Virus record (IMG/VR): IMGVR_UViG_3300032011_000063
Span: 1 to 32,923 of that record
Source: a virus
Length of the DNA stretch: 32,923 nucleotides
Strand: one strand, 5' to 3'
The position numbers and the translations under genes are program-made. Below the pieces are notes generated by a model that was given only the letters and a program-made list of their open reading frames with translations, searched no databases and was not told the origin of the DNA. Numbering within the stretch: position 1 is the stretch's first letter; every line of letters starts with the position of its first letter. Below, in pieces: positions 10,795 through 31,813 of this stretch.

Positions 10795-11166
10795 ATGTCT
10801 GCAAAGACCTTAGAGTTTTATTGCCCTCTCTGTAAGGGAGTGCAAACAGTCCATCGCGGAATATGCAACTCTTGCGGTAAGCTAATAGGATGCTCCATTA
10901 TTAAATACGATGAGGCGGATAACTATTACGGTTGTCAAGACAATCATATGCTGATACAGGAACTACAAAAAATGACTGGTTCCAGAGATGCTCTAATCAC
11001 AAAGATGTATTCAGTATTGGTCTATAAAACAACTCACGGTATCCCTAGAGATGAGCTTATTCAAGAATCATTAAGGGACGTTAAACAGATAGCCAGAAAT
11101 GCTCTAAGGGAATTTGGGATCGATGAAGAAACACCGCCATCACCATCAATGTCGCTGTCAGAGTAG
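10795..11166 (+). CDS. Zinc-ribbon protein next to head morphogenesis gene
   Basis: A 123-residue protein. The N-terminus carries CPLC and CNSC separated by 11 residues, then CGKLIGC: a zinc ribbon. The C-terminal half is helical (residues ~60-110) and ends in an Ser/Pro-rich tail. I place the start at ATG 10795, six bases after GGAG; an in-frame TTG upstream overlaps that ribosome binding site. It overlaps the gpF-like gene by 44 bases. Function unknown; location suggests a head assembly or packaging accessory. Confidence 0.65.
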   Translation: MSAKTLEFYCPLCKGVQTVHRGICNSCGKLIGCSIIKYDEADNYYGCQDNHMLIQELQKMTGSRDALITKMYSVLVYKTTHGIPRDELIQESLRDVKQIARNALREFGIDEETPPSPSMSLSE

Positions 11167-12304
11167 TTGCCAGACTGGCCTTGCTCTAAACCAAAAAAGA
11201 GCAAGTAAGAATCCATTGAGAATGGATCCGACACGCACGACCTCCCTTCGCAACTCTTTCGTTCGTGAAGTAAATAAGAGAATGGCTCAGCTCAAACGGG
11301 CTATTCGATATGTGGTCGGCGACCTAGATGTCTTCGGGATAAAAAGATCCAATCCCTTTACTGCTAATGCCCCTGCCTTCTTCTTTGAGTCTTATGGTTT
11401 ACAGACTCCTCGGCCATCAGAAATAGAATCCATTTTAGGTATTGCTTATGATCCTAATTTCATAGCAGACGCTGGACCAATCGTAGCAGCTCAAAGCCCA
11501 TCAGCCCAGCTTACTGCTTTTCAGAAGTGGATGAAACAACAAGCAGAAGCGGGAATTATCCAAGTACCGACAGGCTTTGAGGGAGAGCCGTGGTGTGCCC
11601 CCTATATCGAATCATCCTATAAGAAAGCAATGCTCCGAACATATACGGATATTTATGGGCTATCGGCACAGGCGAGTGGTCTTGGAGGTTCTCAAGCAGC
11701 TTTTCTACAGTCTGCTTTTGCGGCACCGATAGCAACGAATCAGATACAGATATTAGCCACCAGATGCTTCCAGCAGTTAGAGGGAGTAACGGCCGCTATG
11801 GAACAGCAGATGGCACGAATACTGGCAGACGGGCTAATACATGGAAGAAGTCCGTACGTGATAGCAAGGGAATTGGAAAAGACTGTCGTTACCATGACCA
11901 AGAGGAGAGCACGAACGATAGCCAGAACAGAGATTATTCATGCCTATGCTGAAGGCCAATTAGATACTTTTGAGATAGTTGGAAAGGATGACGTTACCAT
12001 AATGGCCGAGTGGTCTACTGCTGGTGACGATAGAGTATGTGAAGCATGTAATTCATTAGAGGGCGTTGTCTTAAAAGTATCAGAAGCCCGAGGTCTAATA
12101 CCTAGACACCCTAACTGTCGCTGCGCATTTTTACCGTATGATCCTATGTTCCCTGAAAAAGGCTCTAAGACAAGAAAACAAGAGATAGAGGGAGCCATTC
12201 GGACATCAATAAAGAAAACATCCCCTAAAGGATCCTCCTTCGCAGAAGCAGTAGAGTCTTCTTCCTGGGCGGGTTCTAGTTTACCATTTTTAAGACCTAA
12301 GTAA
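11123..12304 (+). CDS. Mu gpF/SPP1 gp7-like head morphogenesis protein
   Basis: About 393 residues. The C-terminal half has the family signature: RRARTIARTEIIHAYAEGQ, then WSTAGDDRVCEACNSLEGVV and IPRHPNCRCAFLPY, with Cys/His likely binding zinc. These proteins sit near the portal, are packaged in small numbers and are needed for head assembly. The N-terminus from DPTRTTSLRNSF is the usual start of the conserved part. ATG at 11123 gives an extra His/Cys-rich leader (MKKHRHHHQCRCQ); ATG at 11222 is an alternative start exactly at the conserved segment. No toxin domain is fused at the C-terminus. Confidence 0.85.
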   Translation: MKKHRHHHQCRCQSSCQTGLALNQKRASKNPLRMDPTRTTSLRNSFVREVNKRMAQLKRAIRYVVGDLDVFGIKRSNPFTANAPAFFFESYGLQTPRPSEIESILGIAYDPNFIADAGPIVAAQSPSAQLTAFQKWMKQQAEAGIIQVPTGFEGEPWCAPYIESSYKKAMLRTYTDIYGLSAQASGLGGSQAAFLQSAFAAPIATNQIQILATRCFQQLEGVTAAMEQQMARILADGLIHGRSPYVIARELEKTVVTMTKRRARTIARTEIIHAYAEGQLDTFEIVGKDDVTIMAEWSTAGDDRVCEACNSLEGVVLKVSEARGLIPRHPNCRCAFLPYDPMFPEKGSKTRKQEIEGAIRTSIKKTSPKGSSFAEAVESSSWAGSSLPFLRPK

Positions 12305-12441: not shown

Positions 12442-12536
12442 CCTCGTGAACGTGGTTAAGGGGTTCTCCACGACACGGGGTACGCCAGTGATGGGTGGGC
12501 GCAGAGATGCGGGGTTTGGGTACTGGCGTTTTTTAT
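12442..12536 (+). ncRNA. Two-hairpin structured RNA ending in a terminator
   Basis: Hairpin 1: CCTCGTG (12442-12448) pairs with CACGGGG (12474-12480, one G-U pair), and CGTGG (12451-12455) with CCACG (12468-12472), with an AA/A bulge and a 12-base loop. Hairpin 2 starts two bases later: ACGCCAGTG (12482-12490) pairs with TACTGGCGT (12521-12529), then a symmetric 9/9 internal loop made of GGGTGGG and GGGTTTGGG, then CGCA/TGCG closed by a GAGA tetraloop (12504-12507). A run of six or more T follows. Hairpin 2 plus the T-run satisfies an intrinsic terminator, but the internal loop with four G3 runs and the GNRA loop are more elaborate than needed. Confidence 0.7.
12482..12536 (+). terminator. 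Intrinsic terminator after the head morphogenesis operon
   Basis: The outer stem ACGCCAGT/ACTGGCGT is perfect over eight bases and is followed immediately by TTTTTTAT. It would end transcription of the portal to Cys-peptide operon before the gene at 12565. Confidence 0.7.
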
Positions 12537-12564
12537 AATAGAAATTTATTAAGGAAATAGCACA

Positions 12565-13092
12565 ATGGCTAAAACATTTAAGGCCGATTTTAACTTTCGG
12601 ACGATATGGGAGTATGTCAATACTCCAGATAGTGCGGTAGCCGATGCTCCGTCTATCAAAGATAACAACACTTTATTGATTACAGATAATCTGACGAATG
12701 GTACTGGCACTGCTGATGTTGCTAGTAAGATTTATCACGATATCCGGACACTCGCACATTCCTCTAATGAAGAGTTTGATCTGGCTGGAGTTCTTGAAGA
12801 TGCGTTTGGAGATGTTCTCACCTTTACGATTGTGAGAGGACTATTCATAATCAATAAAGAACTATCGTCTGCTGCTCCGGTATTAGAAGTCGGCGGAGCA
12901 ACTAATGCCTTCTCAAGTATCTTCGGAAGTGCTACTGATAAAGTTAAGGTGGCAGGTGCCGGGATGATAGCGTTCTGGAATCCTACTGTCGCTGGTTACG
13001 CCGTTACGGCAAGTACGGCTGATGTCATTAAGGTTGCCAATACTAGTGGTGCCGATAGCTGCACTTACCAGATAGTAATAATCGGAGAATAG
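12565..13092 (+). CDS. Putative virion protein
   Basis: A 175-residue protein with little Cys and many small residues. The middle has EEFDLAGVLEDAFGDVLTF followed by TIVRGLFIINK, then VLEVGGATNAFSSIFGS; this D-L-x-G-x-L-x-D-x-F-G-x-x-L-T-F pattern recurs, from memory, in uncharacterised phage structural-region proteins. It is beta-rich and probably a virion or decoration component. AAGGA precedes the ATG by about nine bases. It stands alone between the terminator at 12482 and the convergent minus-strand cassette. Confidence 0.55.
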   Translation: MAKTFKADFNFRTIWEYVNTPDSAVADAPSIKDNNTLLITDNLTNGTGTADVASKIYHDIRTLAHSSNEEFDLAGVLEDAFGDVLTFTIVRGLFIINKELSSAAPVLEVGGATNAFSSIFGSATDKVKVAGAGMIAFWNPTVAGYAVTASTADVIKVANTSGADSCTYQIVIIGE

Positions 13093-13093
13093 G

Positions 13094-13330
13094 TCATCTG
13101 GCTCTTTTTGGAAACTTCTTTCTCCAACTCTTCGTGAAGAACCAAGTCGGTACCCTATTTCTAGGTTGCTGAAAGGTCATCGTATCAGCGACGGCGAGAC
13201 CCCCATGCCAGATGATGGGGTTCTTGCCGTCAAGGAAAAGCTGATTCCCTTTTTCGATAGCATCTGCGATGTCATCGAATAGTTCAGTGACAATATGGCA
13301 ATAGTCGATTTTGTATTGAAGCTCAAACAT
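13094..13330 (-). CDS. Hypothetical small cassette protein
   Basis: A 78-residue protein. The N-terminal half is acidic and helical (YKIDYCHIVTELFDDIADAI), the C-terminal tail basic (KSWRKKFPKRAR). No family recognised. The ATG overlaps the stop of the next upstream gene as TAATG and is preceded by GGGGAG. It ends one base from the convergent plus-strand gene with no visible terminator between them. Third and last gene of the minus-strand cassette in the late region. Confidence 0.6.
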   Translation of the reverse strand: MFELQYKIDYCHIVTELFDDIADAIEKGNQLFLDGKNPIIWHGGLAVADTMTFQQPRNRVPTWFFTKSWRKKFPKRAR

Positions 13331-13539
13331 TAGCTAGGCAGCTCCCCTGCTTCTTCCAAAAACTCTAAGGTTGCTACGGTCTCATTCAGCTTTTCTCCTA
13401 GCTTATTAGCCAGCGACCATAAGTCTATGTTGTTTTCCAGACCGCTGTCATGGTAGAACTGCCTAGACCAGTCGAACATCTGGGCTGCCCTTTGTCTGAG
13501 TTCTACTCTTTGTTCCCATAATTCTTTTTGCGATAACAT
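13330..13539 (-). CDS. Hypothetical small helical cassette protein
   Basis: A 69-residue, almost fully helical, acidic protein (MLSQKELWEQRVELRQRAAQ and on). No family recognised. Its start has the conserved leader AAGGATCAATCAAATG, and the 12 bases before the AAGG (AATCTTAATCAC) are identical to those before the gene at 32420-32608, which strongly supports that it is expressed. Confidence 0.65.
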   Translation of the reverse strand: MLSQKELWEQRVELRQRAAQMFDWSRQFYHDSGLENNIDLWSLANKLGEKLNETVATLEFLEEAGELPS

Positions 13540-25605: not shown

Positions 25606-28530
25606 ATGGCCAATTATTATTTATCGGATGCCGATAGAGATAAAATCAAAGCTGCGTTGGACCGATTGGATCAGGAAACGCAAGCTCACGCCAACTCTTT
25701 CAGACCAGATCAGGTTTGGCAGGCAAACGATACTTATTTTGGTATTCTTCATTGTGATGATACTCTCGGTCCCAGACGTGGAAACAGACCTGGCGTTGCT
25801 GAAGTTTGTTTATATCGCCACGTTCACTCAGGCGGTTCTTCATACAGAATAGAAGCGGTCAAAACTCCGGACGGTGAAATTGTTAGGGTCACTTGTTACA
25901 ACATCTACTTAGAGGCCATTACCGGGGAAGATGGGTACTTCCAGATGTATCGTTCAAAGTATGGACGATGGTTAAATGAACGTCCCGCTGGAGCACCAAC
26001 CACAACAACTTCAGCACCAAGTTCCCCACAACTTCCATCAGAAACAGATTATCCTGATCCAGTTCCAACACCTTGTTCGGGTACTTGTGAATGGCGTTGG
26101 AATTCTTATGAACAAGCGTGGGAAGTACAAACAGATGGTTGTTCAACCTCACCAACTAATCCACCAACAACATACCCACCATATGAACCCGACCCCGATC
26201 CTACTTGTAAGCAATGCCCACATCCAAACTCAACACTTGCACCACTCGACACCTCTATAGCTCCAACAGCGGCAGCGATTGCATACGCCTCTTCTGGTAC
26301 TACAACCACTACGACCACTACGACCAATGACCCGAGTCTTTGCGATTGTGAGTACCCAGAATATTGCGGGGATGTAGATGGTGAACTTGCTCAAACTCAA
26401 TGTGTTACCGATGTAGGTACCCCGAACCTAAATTGCACAACTACAACAACCAGTTCACCCACAACTCAAGCACCTTGTAATTGCGACACAACAACCACAA
26501 CTCAAAATCCTGATGCGAATTGCACGCTTGGTTGTGATTATGCAACCAAACTTGTTCCTGGCGGAGGAGGAGCTTGGGAATGGGTTCAGACTTCAAATGG
26601 GTGTTCATACGGTTGTCCTTGTAGTTGGCCGCCAACCGAACCAGAGTGTGATGCGACCTATCATTCGGAATGCCAAGTCGTTGAACGAGAACCATCCCCA
26701 CCACCACCAGAGCCTACATGCAATGGAACATGCACTTACATGTATGACACGGCTTGGGTATGGATAGAAGGGGGTTGTACTGGTACGTCTGGAGGAATGG
26801 TTGCCGGTAATTGCAGTTGTGATTTCCCATCTCAATCTGGTTCTTCATGTGATGTGGTTTCAACTCCTTGCCGATTCCGTGAATCAACAACCACAACTCT
26901 TTCTTGTGAAGAGCAATGTTATACAACCACAACAACTGACCCAACCACAACCACAACTTCAACAACAACGACAACCTGTAATCCATGTGCCAGAGTTTGT
27001 CCTGGAGGTAGTGGACGTGAGGGATTGTGTTTCTACAGGTACGATGAAACTTGTGCTTCTTGGGTTCTAACTTATGACGGCTGTGATGAAGATAACTGCC
27101 CATGCCCAGAAACTAGAGATGATCTTGGAGCATCATCTGATGGCGTGGTTGTAAATATCCCATGCTCAAGATATACAACACCAGCACCGACGACAACATT
27201 GGCTCCTGAATCTTGTCAAAAGGTTTGCAAGTGGAAATATTCTTGTGATTGTACTCCACCCCAATGGCTGGTGGTTGTCGATGGTTGTGATACCGTTGAA
27301 TCGGGAGAGCCTTGTTATACTTGTGGGGAGGCGAGCGACGCCATACCCAAATCCGTATTTGAGAACCCATCTTGTGGAAAAGAGGTTGAAGCTGTTTGTG
27401 GAACGACAACGACAACATCAACAGCGGCTCCGACAACAGCGGCTCCGACAACAGCACCACCAACCACAACAACGCTTTGCCCAACAACGACGACGACAAC
27501 AACAGTAGCTCCGACAACAACCACAACAACATGCGCCCCAACTACAACGACCGCTGACCCGTGTGCGGTTCCAAATTGTCAAATGCAATGTATTGATCAA
27601 GCGGGATTTCCTGATATTGATTCCTATTGGTACACAACAGAAATTCATGACCGAATGTGCCCTATGCAAGATCCGCCAGGATGCACATGTACAGGACCAG
27701 GAGGGGAAGTGTATTGGGGGAGTTGCAATGGAAGAGAAGGTGAAGTTGTAAACGGAACATGCGGCCCAGCAACAACGACAACCTGTAATCCTTCCGAAAC
27801 ATGCGAAGAACCACCCAACTACAATGACAGATGCAATCGGGCACACAATGGAAGATATTGTTGTTGCAAAGGTGCATGTTGCACTTATTCAACATTGGCT
27901 TCTTGTACTATTAACGGCGGTGGAATTGGGAAGTTACTCAGTTGCAATGAAACTGAAGTTTGGAATTGTAATAAGCCAAGAGGCGGCGGTTCATGTTGCA
28001 AGAGTCCAGCCGATGGCGGTTGTGATGTTTATTGGTTAGGTGCTGGAGCTTCCTGTGACTCTTGCCCAGATGACTATGATGGCACAACGACAACGACAAC
28101 AACACCAGCCCCAACAGGCTCATGTTGCCATAATTATGGTTCTTGTAGTGACGGAGATACTGAAGCAGAATGTGCCGCAAGAACAGCGGGTACATGGGAT
28201 GCGACTAATGATTGTGCCGCCAGAACATGCCCAACAACAACAACACCAGCACCAACCGGCTCTTGTTGTTATAATTACGGATCATGTTCTGATGGAGATA
28301 CCGAAGCGGAATGTGCCGCAAGAACAGCAGGAACATGGGATAGTTCAAATGATTGTGCAGCTAGAACATGCCCAACAACTACAGTGGCTCCAACATGTAG
28401 CGGCGACTGTATTTACATATGGGACGGATCGGCTTGGGGATTATCATCGAATACATGTACCTGTAGTTGTTCCCCACCAGCAGGAAGTGGAGACTATCCG
28501 ACAGAGACAAGAGCAGGTACCTGTTCTTAA
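25606..28530 (+). CDS. Large cysteine-rich, threonine-tract adhesin or tail fibre
   Basis: A 974-residue protein. Residues 1-130 form a non-Cys-rich base (LSDADRDKIKAALDRLDQET at the start) that probably docks to the tail tip. The rest alternates Thr-Ala-Pro linkers (TTTTT, TTAAPTTAPP) with Cys modules. At least six type-A modules read C-x-W/Y-x-W/Y ... W ... GC ... CxC, for example CSGTCEWRWNSYEQAWEV, CNGTCTYMYDTAWVW and CSGDCIYIWDGSAWG. Two type-B modules (TGSCC..YGSCSDGDTEAECA) are tandem with a 47-residue period at 28117 and 28258. No signal peptide or catalytic motif was seen. It is likely a receptor-binding fibre; the many cysteines suggest disulphides outside the cell or bound metal. 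Confidence 0.75.
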   Translation: MANYYLSDADRDKIKAALDRLDQETQAHANSFRPDQVWQANDTYFGILHCDDTLGPRRGNRPGVAEVCLYRHVHSGGSSYRIEAVKTPDGEIVRVTCYNIYLEAITGEDGYFQMYRSKYGRWLNERPAGAPTTTTSAPSSPQLPSETDYPDPVPTPCSGTCEWRWNSYEQAWEVQTDGCSTSPTNPPTTYPPYEPDPDPTCKQCPHPNSTLAPLDTSIAPTAAAIAYASSGTTTTTTTTTNDPSLCDCEYPEYCGDVDGELAQTQCVTDVGTPNLNCTTTTTSSPTTQAPCNCDTTTTTQNPDANCTLGCDYATKLVPGGGGAWEWVQTSNGCSYGCPCSWPPTEPECDATYHSECQVVEREPSPPPPEPTCNGTCTYMYDTAWVWIEGGCTGTSGGMVAGNCSCDFPSQSGSSCDVVSTPCRFRESTTTTLSCEEQCYTTTTTDPTTTTTSTTTTTCNPCARVCPGGSGREGLCFYRYDETCASWVLTYDGCDEDNCPCPETRDDLGASSDGVVVNIPCSRYTTPAPTTTLAPESCQKVCKWKYSCDCTPPQWLVVVDGCDTVESGEPCYTCGEASDAIPKSVFENPSCGKEVEAVCGTTTTTSTAAPTTAAPTTAPPTTTTLCPTTTTTTTVAPTTTTTTCAPTTTTADPCAVPNCQMQCIDQAGFPDIDSYWYTTEIHDRMCPMQDPPGCTCTGPGGEVYWGSCNGREGEVVNGTCGPATTTTCNPSETCEEPPNYNDRCNRAHNGRYCCCKGACCTYSTLASCTINGGGIGKLLSCNETEVWNCNKPRGGGSCCKSPADGGCDVYWLGAGASCDSCPDDYDGTTTTTTTPAPTGSCCHNYGSCSDGDTEAECAARTAGTWDATNDCAARTCPTTTTPAPTGSCCYNYGSCSDGDTEAECAARTAGTWDSSNDCAARTCPTTTVAPTCSGDCIYIWDGSAWGLSSNTCTCSCSPPAGSGDYPTETRAGTCS
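28117..28397 (+). repeat. Tandem duplicated Cys module (141-bp period)
   Basis: Two copies of a 47-codon unit start at 28117 and 28258. At protein level they differ at only a few residues (H/Y and ATN/SSN), but many third positions differ, so the copies have diverged under protein-level constraint rather than being recent. A third, degenerate start (APTCSGDC) follows. Confidence 0.8.
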
Positions 28531-28560: not shown

Positions 28561-30456
28561 ATGCCAAAACTAACTATCGGAATGGCTCACTATGATGATT
28601 ATCATGGAGCCTATTTCACCATTCAAGCACTTCGGTTGTATCACCCCGAAGTAATAAAAGATATTCAGTTTGTTGTAATAGACAACTCCCCTCACACTCA
28701 GCATGGATCTCTTCTGAAAGGTTTTGTGGAGGGGGCAGCAAGAAGGGGAACGGCTGGAGCTAAATACATTCCCCTTACAGATCCCAAAGGAACGTCACCT
28801 AGTCGCAACGCTATCTTCGACCATGCCGATGGTGACTTTGTTCTGGTTAATGATTGTCACGTCATGTACCCATCCGGATCCATTAAGAGGCTACTGGATT
28901 ATTATCAGGCAAATCCTAAAACCAATAACATCTATTCTGGCCCTCTTGTTTACGATGGGATGGACCAAGTAACTACCCACTTTAATGATGAGTGGCGTGG
29001 CGAGATGTGGGGGACTTGGGGTTCTGCTTGGACTAATCAAGATGAAACAGAATACTTTTCCATTATCCAAGATCCATCAAAGAAAGACCAAGCATTACCT
29101 ATAGCTTTAGAGATGGGACAGAAACCGATTATGAGTTGTGCGGGTAAACAGGTTCCGCATAAGATTGCTTGGGCTGGGCATCCTTCTGTTTACAAAGATG
29201 CTGGCTTCAAGTTGGCAGGTGTGAATGATGATGATAAGCCATTTGAAATTCCAGGACAAGGCTTAGGCTCTTTCACTTGTCGACGTGCTGCTTGGTTGGG
29301 TTTTAATCCCCATTCAAGAGGTTTCGGCGGTGAAGAACTTTACATCCACGAAAAGTATAGACAACAAGGCGGTAAAGCAATCTGTCTTCCGTTTCTCAAA
29401 TGGGTACATCGCTTCGGTCGCCCAGATGGTCCGAAGTATCCTCTCACAAGATACGGGAAGGTGAGGAACTACGTCTTGGAGTTCAATGAGTTGGGACGTG
29501 AATTAGATCCCATTCACGAACACTTTGTTAGCACTGGATTGTTATTGGATACTATTTGGGACCGTCTTATAGAGGACCCCATTAAAAATGAACTGGAAGA
29601 AAAAGAAGAAGGGGAGAAGTGTTCACCATGTGAAGCAGCCCGTAAAATTCAAGGGTCTACATTAGAGGAGGAAGGTGCTCCCGTTGAGAAGGTATTTGAA
29701 ATTGTTAGCAATGTCAAACGGGACCTAGATGAGCATCTAGAATTTTTAAGGGACTTGGCTTCCGACTGCAAGCACATTACAGAAATCTCAAAACGCAAAG
29801 AATCTTTTGTTGCTTTTGCCGCTGCTAAACCTAAGACACTTGTGTCTCACAATATTGAACCTCATAGTCTTATGGATTATATGGAAGCGATCCTCCCTGG
29901 AACTAAAATTCAACGGACTACGTTGACGACTGAGCTTGTGGAGCCAATAGAAAAGACGGACCTTCTGTTCATAGATACCCGTCACACTTTTGGAGTCATG
30001 ACTAATGAGTTAAAGAAACACGCCTCATCTGTCAGGCGGTATATTGTTGCAAGGGGAACCGGATCAAACGGCGAGCGTGGAGAAGATGGTGGACCAGGTA
30101 TCTTATTTGCCCTCCGTGAGTTTATGAAAGAGAATCCCGAGTGGTCTGTGATTACCCACAGAACCAATCAGTATGGTATGACTGTTCTTGGTCGGTTAAA
30201 GAAAGACAAACCGAAGTTACCGTCCAAGATAAAGATGGCAAAGAACTTTGCACTGGCGGTCAAAGACCATATAAAAACAGGATCTGAAAGTGCAAGCAAA
30301 GAAGTGGTAGAGGACCGCTTGTCGCTTTGCAGTATCTGCGAATTCAGAAACGATGACCAATGCTCACTATGCGGTTGCTTTCTTGCTAAGAAGGCCTCGT
30401 GGGCAGAATCAAATTGTCCGATCGGAAAATGGGCGGGCGATAATAAGGAGACCTAA
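28561..30456 (+). CDS. Glycosyltransferase-methyltransferase-like-zinc ribbon fusion
   Basis: A 631-residue three-part protein. Residues 1-330: GT-A fold glycosyltransferase of family-2 type, with LTIGMAHYDDYHGAYFTIQA, GTSPSRNAIFDHADGDFVLVN and metal-binding NDCH (97-100), and FGGEELYIHEKYRQQGG with WVHRFGRP. Residues ~380-560: a Rossmann methyltransferase/CmcI-like segment with DLLFIDTRHTFGVMTNELKK and PGILFALREFMKENPEWSV, lacking an obvious SAM glycine motif. Residues ~590-625: a Cys4-type ribbon, CSICEF..DQCSLCGCFL...SNCPIGKW. It would add and perhaps modify sugar; the acceptor may be the adjacent Thr-rich adhesin. GGAG lies before the ATG. Confidence 0.75.
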   Translation: MPKLTIGMAHYDDYHGAYFTIQALRLYHPEVIKDIQFVVIDNSPHTQHGSLLKGFVEGAARRGTAGAKYIPLTDPKGTSPSRNAIFDHADGDFVLVNDCHVMYPSGSIKRLLDYYQANPKTNNIYSGPLVYDGMDQVTTHFNDEWRGEMWGTWGSAWTNQDETEYFSIIQDPSKKDQALPIALEMGQKPIMSCAGKQVPHKIAWAGHPSVYKDAGFKLAGVNDDDKPFEIPGQGLGSFTCRRAAWLGFNPHSRGFGGEELYIHEKYRQQGGKAICLPFLKWVHRFGRPDGPKYPLTRYGKVRNYVLEFNELGRELDPIHEHFVSTGLLLDTIWDRLIEDPIKNELEEKEEGEKCSPCEAARKIQGSTLEEEGAPVEKVFEIVSNVKRDLDEHLEFLRDLASDCKHITEISKRKESFVAFAAAKPKTLVSHNIEPHSLMDYMEAILPGTKIQRTTLTTELVEPIEKTDLLFIDTRHTFGVMTNELKKHASSVRRYIVARGTGSNGERGEDGGPGILFALREFMKENPEWSVITHRTNQYGMTVLGRLKKDKPKLPSKIKMAKNFALAVKDHIKTGSESASKEVVEDRLSLCSICEFRNDDQCSLCGCFLAKKASWAESNCPIGKWAGDNKET

Positions 30457-30457
30457 A

Positions 30458-30949
30458 ATGAAACCTCAATTTACAGGAAAGGCAGATAGACAGTTGGATG
30501 ACCACGAGTTCCTAGCCTTGTCACAACTAGCAAGAGGAATACGTGTTCTACAGATAGGCAACTTACAAGGACGGTTAACGGACGCTCTTGCTCAGAATGC
30601 GGAGCACATTATAAGCATTGATCAATCAAAGATGAATGAAGAAGTTTCGTTATTGAATCCAAAAGATTTTGATCTTCTGTTTTACGATGCAGATGATACA
30701 GTTCAAGACATACAGTTCTTTTGTGATTGGGCGTTGAATGTCCGACACGATGCTATCGTAGTGATACATGATTACAAACCTGGAGATCCTATTTGGCAAC
30801 CTTCCGTTGATGTCATGGATAAATGGCATACTGATTCCGGTCGGATGGCAAAGCTAATCGGCTCCTTATTTATCGCAGTCAACCAGCAGATCCCATATGG
30901 GCAACATCTGGGAACAGAAAACTATCCAGAGAAAATTGAAACCGATTGA
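30458..30949 (+). CDS. SAM-methyltransferase-like protein
   Basis: A 163-residue Rossmann protein: RVLQIGNLQGRLTDALAQ in the motif I position, IISIDQS, FDLLFYDADDTVQDI and VVIHDYKPGDP. Motif I is degenerate (IGNLQG rather than GxGxG), so activity is uncertain. AAGGAGACC precedes the ATG at 30458. It probably works with the two glycosyltransferases on either side. A frame extending 5-prime is just the end of the previous gene read in another frame. Confidence 0.65.
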   Translation: MKPQFTGKADRQLDDHEFLALSQLARGIRVLQIGNLQGRLTDALAQNAEHIISIDQSKMNEEVSLLNPKDFDLLFYDADDTVQDIQFFCDWALNVRHDAIVVIHDYKPGDPIWQPSVDVMDKWHTDSGRMAKLIGSLFIAVNQQIPYGQHLGTENYPEKIETD

Positions 30950-30980
30950 CATTTCCATAATTTCGATTTTTATAACTATT

Positions 30981-30999
30981 CAACTTCCGTTTGAAGTTG
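30981..30999 (+). other. Small inverted repeat upstream of second glycosyltransferase
   Basis: CAACTTC (30981-30987) and GAAGTTG (30993-30999) flank a five-base loop, followed by AT-rich sequence with ATTATTTTTA. It may be a weak terminator for the methyltransferase operon, or overlap the promoter that follows. Confidence 0.4.
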
Positions 31000-31024
31000 C
31001 TATCATTATTTTTATGTGTATAGT
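30997..31024 (+). promoter_or_regulatory. Candidate promoter for the second glycosyltransferase
   Basis: TTGCTA (30997-31002) and TATAGT (31019-31024) are 16 bases apart in an AT-rich 108-base gap, 34 bases before the next ATG. This is one of few sizeable gaps in the plus-strand late region. Confidence 0.4.
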
Positions 31025-31057
31025 TTTTTGTGTGAACAAAATAGGAACAAATCAAAA

Positions 31058-31813
31058 ATGAAAATCGCTTGTTTAATGCCGACCTATAATCGCTGTCCAA
31101 AAAACCAGCATCTTATAGAGGAAGCACTCCATTCATTTCTACTTCAAGATTATGATAATCGTGAATTGATTATCTGCAATGATACTCCAGATCAGAAACT
31201 AATCTATTCGGATGCTATTGATCAAGATAAGATTATCATCCAAAACCTAGATACCAGATTTGGTACCTTGTCTGATAAAATCAAATTTATGATTGAAAGT
31301 TCTGACGCAGACTTATTCTGTCGCTGGGATGACGATGACATAAGTTTGCCGCATAGACTTTCATATTCAGTAGACAATTTAGGCGATAAGCTAGAATGGC
31401 GTGCTGAGAATTACTATTACTGCCCAGGCGACAAAACTCTCCATACATCCGGTGTAGGTAATACACATTGTATGAGTTTATGGCGCAGGGAAGTATTGGA
31501 GGTAATCGGCGGTTATCCAGAGAAGGCTAGTGGATGGGAAGACCAACAGTTTAACATCCAATTAGCCAGTAGTGGAGTTAACACTTCCGGTGACTTAATT
31601 CCTATTGATGAAATATTTTATCTGTATAGGTGGGGAGTTTCGGATAGACATCTTTCAGGTACTGGAGGCGGGAATAAAGGACTTCAACAGCATTGGGATG
31701 AAATCGGACAGAAAGAAATATCTCAAGGTGAATTTCATCTACAACCTCATTGGGCAGAAGATTATGTCCTCAGAGCAAAAGAAGCCAAAGGAGCGGCCCC
31801 TATGGCCGGTTAG
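31058..31813 (+). CDS. Family-2 type glycosyltransferase
   Basis: A 251-residue GT-A enzyme: KIACLMPTYNRCPKNQHLIE at the N-terminus, LHSFLLQDYDNRELIICND, then the metal-binding RWDDDD near residues 88-93, and GGYPEKASGWEDQQF with the likely base. These are the usual family-2 landmarks for a nucleotide-sugar transferase. ATG at 31058 has AGGAA about 11 bases upstream. It is followed by a terminator at 31819 and probably forms a late or independent unit with its own promoter. Sugar and acceptor are unknown. Confidence 0.82.
   Translation: MKIACLMPTYNRCPKNQHLIEEALHSFLLQDYDNRELIICNDTPDQKLIYSDAIDQDKIIIQNLDTRFGTLSDKIKFMIESSDADLFCRWDDDDISLPHRLSYSVDNLGDKLEWRAENYYYCPGDKTLHTSGVGNTHCMSLWRREVLEVIGGYPEKASGWEDQQFNIQLASSGVNTSGDLIPIDEIFYLYRWGVSDRHLSGTGGGNKGLQQHWDEIGQKEISQGEFHLQPHWAEDYVLRAKEAKGAAPMAG

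Follow-up and report, generated by a model that had tools for sequence, protein, structure and literature searches.

Fluorogenic aptamers such as Spinach carry a G-rich internal loop between two helices, and known viral exonuclease-resistant RNA elements (xrRNAs) block 5'-3' enzymes by means of a ring fold. The element described here shares the G-rich internal loop between helices with the aptamers, but it is natural and is likened to them by layout alone. With the xrRNAs it has in common that it is a compact RNA in a 3' untranslated region, whereas the protection proposed for it is 3'-5' and putative. Its G+C-rich stem followed by T6 at the end of an operon also resembles an intrinsic (rho-independent) terminator. 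In contrast to such terminators, the element combines a hairpin of 48 nt, whose G-rich internal loop is conserved, with a second conserved hairpin as partner, and its T-run is missing in one lineage. Quadruplexes with a duplex stem-loop as one of their loops have been verified by NMR for DNA (PMC4477648). Like these quadruplex-duplex hybrids, or stem-loop-containing quadruplex sequences, the element has four G tracts and a duplex stem-loop in the position of the long loop; it differs in being closed also by an outer helix, in the covariation of its stem-loop, in a GG tract in one lineage and in that the quadruplex is putative here.

The window, by which we mean the whole stretch of DNA analysed, is a linear virus record of 32.9 kb with genes for packaging, head and tail. 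The element (12442-12534, approximately 93 nt) lies between a small Cys-rich ORF and the phrog_22694 gene (Table 1). An earlier note on this DNA had described a bulged hairpin of 12 bp, followed by a second one with nine pairs, a 9/9 internal loop containing four G3 runs, a four-pair helix and a GAGA loop, followed by T6; inspection of the sequence and folding found every one of these parts. Hairpin 2 (12482-12529) is formed by the arms ACGCCAGT/ACTGGCGT, which together with one G-U pair make up the nine pairs, and above this outer stem follow the loop ATGGGTGGG / GGGTTTGGG, the CGCA/TGCG helix and the GAGA loop. The relatives do not keep the ninth, G-U pair (12490/12521); in all lineages position 12491 is A and position 12521 is U. 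The region has a better fold than expected by chance (z -2.8; none of 200 shuffles equalled it), and the tight four-G3 motif has a single occurrence in the window, with 0.13 expected per dinucleotide shuffle.

Table 1. Position of the RNA element, its parts and the adjacent genes in the window
Feature	Position	Strand	Remarks
Head morphogenesis (gp7/MuF-like) gene	11114-12304	+	phrog_758, E 1.7e-30; head operon that the RNA element follows
Cys-rich ORF, 34 aa	12316-12420	+	Directly 5' of the RNA; tblastn 50-54% identity, same place in L010 and L004/L005
Candidate closing-helix 5' strand, TATAAA	12435-12440	+	Pairs with TTTATA 12532-12537; weak
Hairpin 1	12442-12480	+	Bulged stem CCTCGTG-AA-CGTGG / CCACG-A-CACGGGG, 12 pairs including one U-G; 12-nt loop; from folding
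Hairpin 1 loop, TTAAGGGGTTCT	12456-12467	+	8-9 of 12 columns the same between lineages
Hairpin 2 outer stem, 5' arm	12482-12489	+	7 of 8 pairs compensatory, 100% paired; recovered by RNAalifold on MAFFT alignment
G core, 5' half, ATGGGTGGG	12491-12499	+	Conservation relative to L004
Inner stem-loop, CGCA-GAGA-TGCG	12500-12511	+	2 of 4 pairs compensatory; loop differs in L004
G core, 3' half, GGGTTTGGGT	12512-12521	+	Conservation relative to L004
Hairpin 2 outer stem, 3' arm	12522-12529	+	Covariation; RNAalifold on MAFFT alignment
T6 run, terminator-like	12529-12534	+	Read directly; TTTTATT in L010, TTATTC in L004
phrog_22694 gene, function unassigned	12565-13092	+	3' of the RNA element in the window

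An identical element was present in L001-L003, which are near copies of the window. Protein searches added three records, whose head proteins were 68% (L010), 64% (L004) and 63% (L005) identical. A covariance model based solely on the window copy and searched against 47 loci (474 kb) matched L005 (55 bits, E 3.3e-8), L004 (54 bits, E 6.2e-8) and L010 (45.5 bits, E 2.6e-6), with no match elsewhere among these loci. Since the L004 and L005 elements are near copies, the comparison comprises three independent lineages only. There is one copy per record, and in all lineages it lies shortly 3' of the head gene and the small Cys-rich ORF, with the G-rich strand always in the sense of the head gene. 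This is so even where the next gene is convergent, as in L010, L004 and L005, in which the element lies between two operons; in the window that gene (phrog_22694) alone is flipped and has the sense of the head operon. Because the head operon is the constant neighbour, the element belongs to its 3' end.

Outside these lineages the searches were negative. No element was detected by model R2 in head/portal relatives at greater distance (L030 onwards, L096 onwards), nor was one evident 3' of the head gene in those of them that were inspected; L025, L026, L028, L088 and L092 stop short of the place where it would be expected. DNA patterns for the core or for the pair of hairpin loop and core gave, in IMG/VR, only matches lacking the fold beyond the three known lineages. 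A pattern match in a Phycisphaerales genome was rejected, as it falls within a Gly-rich stretch of coding sequence and does not pass the covariance model. Genome contigs scanned with the head alignment yielded none, and blastn against phage records gave chance matches only.

The earlier note had proposed a covariance search for homologues; these were found in L010 and L004/L005, and their stems covary. Covariation was counted on a model-fitted alignment, which leans towards the structure: 97.9% of the cells pair, and both sides have changed in 16 of the 24 pairs (7 of 12 in hairpin 1). In control alignments, with the partners slid by one to three columns, pairs changed on both sides numbered at most 3 and pairing reached at most 47%. 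RNAalifold applied to a plain MAFFT alignment recovered both helices of hairpin 2 and nothing else, with compensatory changes in 9 of 12 pairs. Covariation, the mark of a conserved structured RNA, is thus seen between independent lineages, and we regard it as almost certain that the element is a real conserved structured RNA. The pairs of the head-sense strand include two G-U and no A-C, which weakly favours an RNA of this sense. A closing helix, P1 (12435-12440 with 12532-12537), is suggestive only: a 6-bp complement occurs in each of the three lineages, with a chance of 6-18% apiece, and in L010 and L004 its 3' strand shares bases with the convergent gene's stop codon.

Between the window and L004 the identity was 4/16 in the outer stem of hairpin 2 and 4/8 in the inner stem, and 19/21 in the G core; the corresponding values with L010 were 10/16, 6/8 and 15/20. 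The sequence of the core is AUGGGUGGG / GGGUUUGGGU in the window, AUGGGUUGGG / GGGUUUGGGU in L004/L005 and AUGGUGGG / GGGUGGGU in L010. The loop of hairpin 1 is also partly conserved, with AGGGGTTCT common to the window and L010, and AGGGTTTTT in L004/L005. The stem is followed directly by T6 in the window and, roughly, by such a run in L010 (TTTTATT); TTATTC in L004/L005 is no real T-run. The GAGA tetraloop pointed out in the note is present in the window and has GAAA as its counterpart in L010, but a GNRA loop is not required, since L004/L005 have a CAATAT hexaloop. Persistence of the outer stem and T-run with freely varying G-runs and tetraloop would have been the opposite pattern; what was seen is that stems and T-run vary and the G core stays, so that there is good support for a conserved structured RNA whose G core is under selection. 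Selection on the core, conserved beyond the stems, is likewise well supported by these alignments. With G tracts that persist, stems that covary and a T-run that decays in the homologues, the view that the structure exceeds the needs of a plain terminator has held up, and the element is probably more than a simple transcription stop signal.

Could the core form a quadruplex? There are four GGG tracts in the window and in L004/L005, and GG, GGG, GGG and GGG in L010. With these lengths three tetrads could form in two of the lineages and two tetrads in every lineage; the GG of the first L010 tract keeps three from being universal. ViennaRNA retained the plain fold when its quadruplex option was used; its quadruplex model does not handle a hairpin inside a quadruplex loop. 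The G4Hunter scores of the cores (1.57, 1.27 and 1.17) are not telling alone, since other stretches of the window, inside ORFs, score equally high. A quadruplex is possible, and it would explain the conservation of the core, as would other G-rich recognition motifs.

Several observations concern the genes around the element. The Cys-rich microprotein has the pattern FDFMKEE..C..C.C and is encoded upstream of the RNA in 3/3 lineages (7795-7899 in L010; 3306-3383, minus strand, in L004); it had no PHROG or Pfam match and was not found in the other loci compared. The phrog_22694 gene is convergent in all relatives (L010 7991-8518, minus strand; L004 2640-3173; L005 5995-6528), and the orientation of a minus-strand neighbour gene near 13140-13331 is unchanged across lineages, from which a single-gene inversion or re-insertion of the phrog_22694 gene may be read. 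A TATAAT sequence occurs approximately 25-45 bases 5' of the phrog_22694 start in 3/3 lineages (12534-12539 in the window, upstream of 8518 on the minus strand of L010, and upstream of 2640 in L004) and is possibly the -10 box of its own promoter. Just 5' of 2640 (+) in L004 and of 5995 (+) in L005, a plain hairpin GCAGAAGT...ACTTCTGC with T7 precedes the phrog_22694 start codon; it could be a classical terminator or a leader attenuator. Farther away in the window, a 974-aa ORF (25606-28530) with Cys-rich repeats and poly-Thr linkers, accompanied by long overlapping ORFs in other frames, had no Pfam or PHROG match and possibly encodes a surface protein or one that binds a receptor. Behind the tail region, at 28561-31813, lie glycosyltransferase-like genes (PF00535 in 28561-30456).

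Starting from the conserved structure, the conserved core, the position and the sense of the element, which were observed, we tentatively favour a structured RNA at the 3' end of the late head transcript that would terminate it and resist 3'-5' exonucleases. In this model a small phage clade would carry a cis-encoded RNA, approximately 93 nt long, in the untranslated 3' part of the transcript of its late head genes. The G-rich internal loop would be held by hairpin 1 and both helices of hairpin 2 so as to form a compact core, for which a quadruplex-duplex hybrid whose central loop is the inner stem-loop is most plausible. The outer stem and the U-run, where present, would end transcription, and the rigid core at the extreme 3' end would block 3'-5' exonucleases and stabilise the head mRNA. 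Both K+-dependent quadruplexes and structured 3' ends stop RNase R, a bacterial 3'-5' exonuclease (PMC6895279), for which reason we infer 3'-end formation with protection as the preferred reading. As regards termination itself, such a function is plausible for the window and for either strand of L010, and weak for L004/L005.

The L004 element speaks against this model, as it favours, by approximately 3 kcal/mol, a fold in which the outer stem is disrupted. Its arm GTGTTTGC has a possible partner on either side, backwards and forwards (-39.3 vs -36.4 kcal/mol), and such an exchange of two folds through a shared arm would suit a switch. Taken together with the conserved unpaired sequence in both loops within covarying stems, which is typical of recognition sites, it could indicate that the G core and the hairpin-1 loop form a putative binding site, as part of a riboswitch-like sensor of a ligand or as the target of a protein from phage or host, controlling read-through at the operon end; the adjacent Cys-rich microprotein, which accompanies the element in 3/3 lineages, is perhaps the protein partner. 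We consider this rather doubtful: the fold exchange is missing from the window and L010, and there is no consistently controlled downstream gene, the next gene being convergent in the relatives. It appears quite improbable that the element is a Spinach-like module, in which a quadruplex in the internal loop between helices would act as a regulated or ligand-responsive 3'-end switch for the late head operon and a guanine compound could fill the vacancy left by the GG tract of L010.

The convergent genes at the site in the relatives, the hairpin with T-run on both strands of L010 and the T6 of the window would fit an intrinsic terminator working in both directions between convergent operons, the G core being a by-product. 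Such an origin is nevertheless unlikely, as the core is the most and the T-runs are the least conserved part, and in L004/L005 the opposite end of the next gene has the plain hairpin-T7, so that a simple terminator would be enough. Both strands fold well, and the neighbour gene differs in orientation between lineages, so the site of the element borders a rearrangement; a DNA-level function, as a replication priming or packaging signal or a recombination site acting as folded single strand or cruciform, could be considered on these grounds. It is made very improbable by the constant sense relative to the head operon, inside whose 3' end the element lies, by the single copy per record and the terminase not being adjacent, and by the finding that no convincing inverted repeats flank the element that could account for the flipped gene.

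No match above the gathering threshold of Rfam 15 was found in the window, L010, L004 or L005, the best subthreshold matches being far below the cut-offs, and a limited word-based search of open-access full text retrieved no description of such an element. We regard the element as a new structured RNA motif of a little-known phage group; it most likely works like a terminator-associated 3' protector, and we file it neither as a quadruplex nor as an intrinsic terminator. Descriptions of conserved natural phage RNAs in which covarying helices hold a G-rich core are rare, and the limited literature search turned up none. If the core is a quadruplex, evolution would here have produced a design known mostly from aptamers obtained by selection, and the element would be a compact case in which to ask whether phage quadruplexes end or protect late mRNAs.
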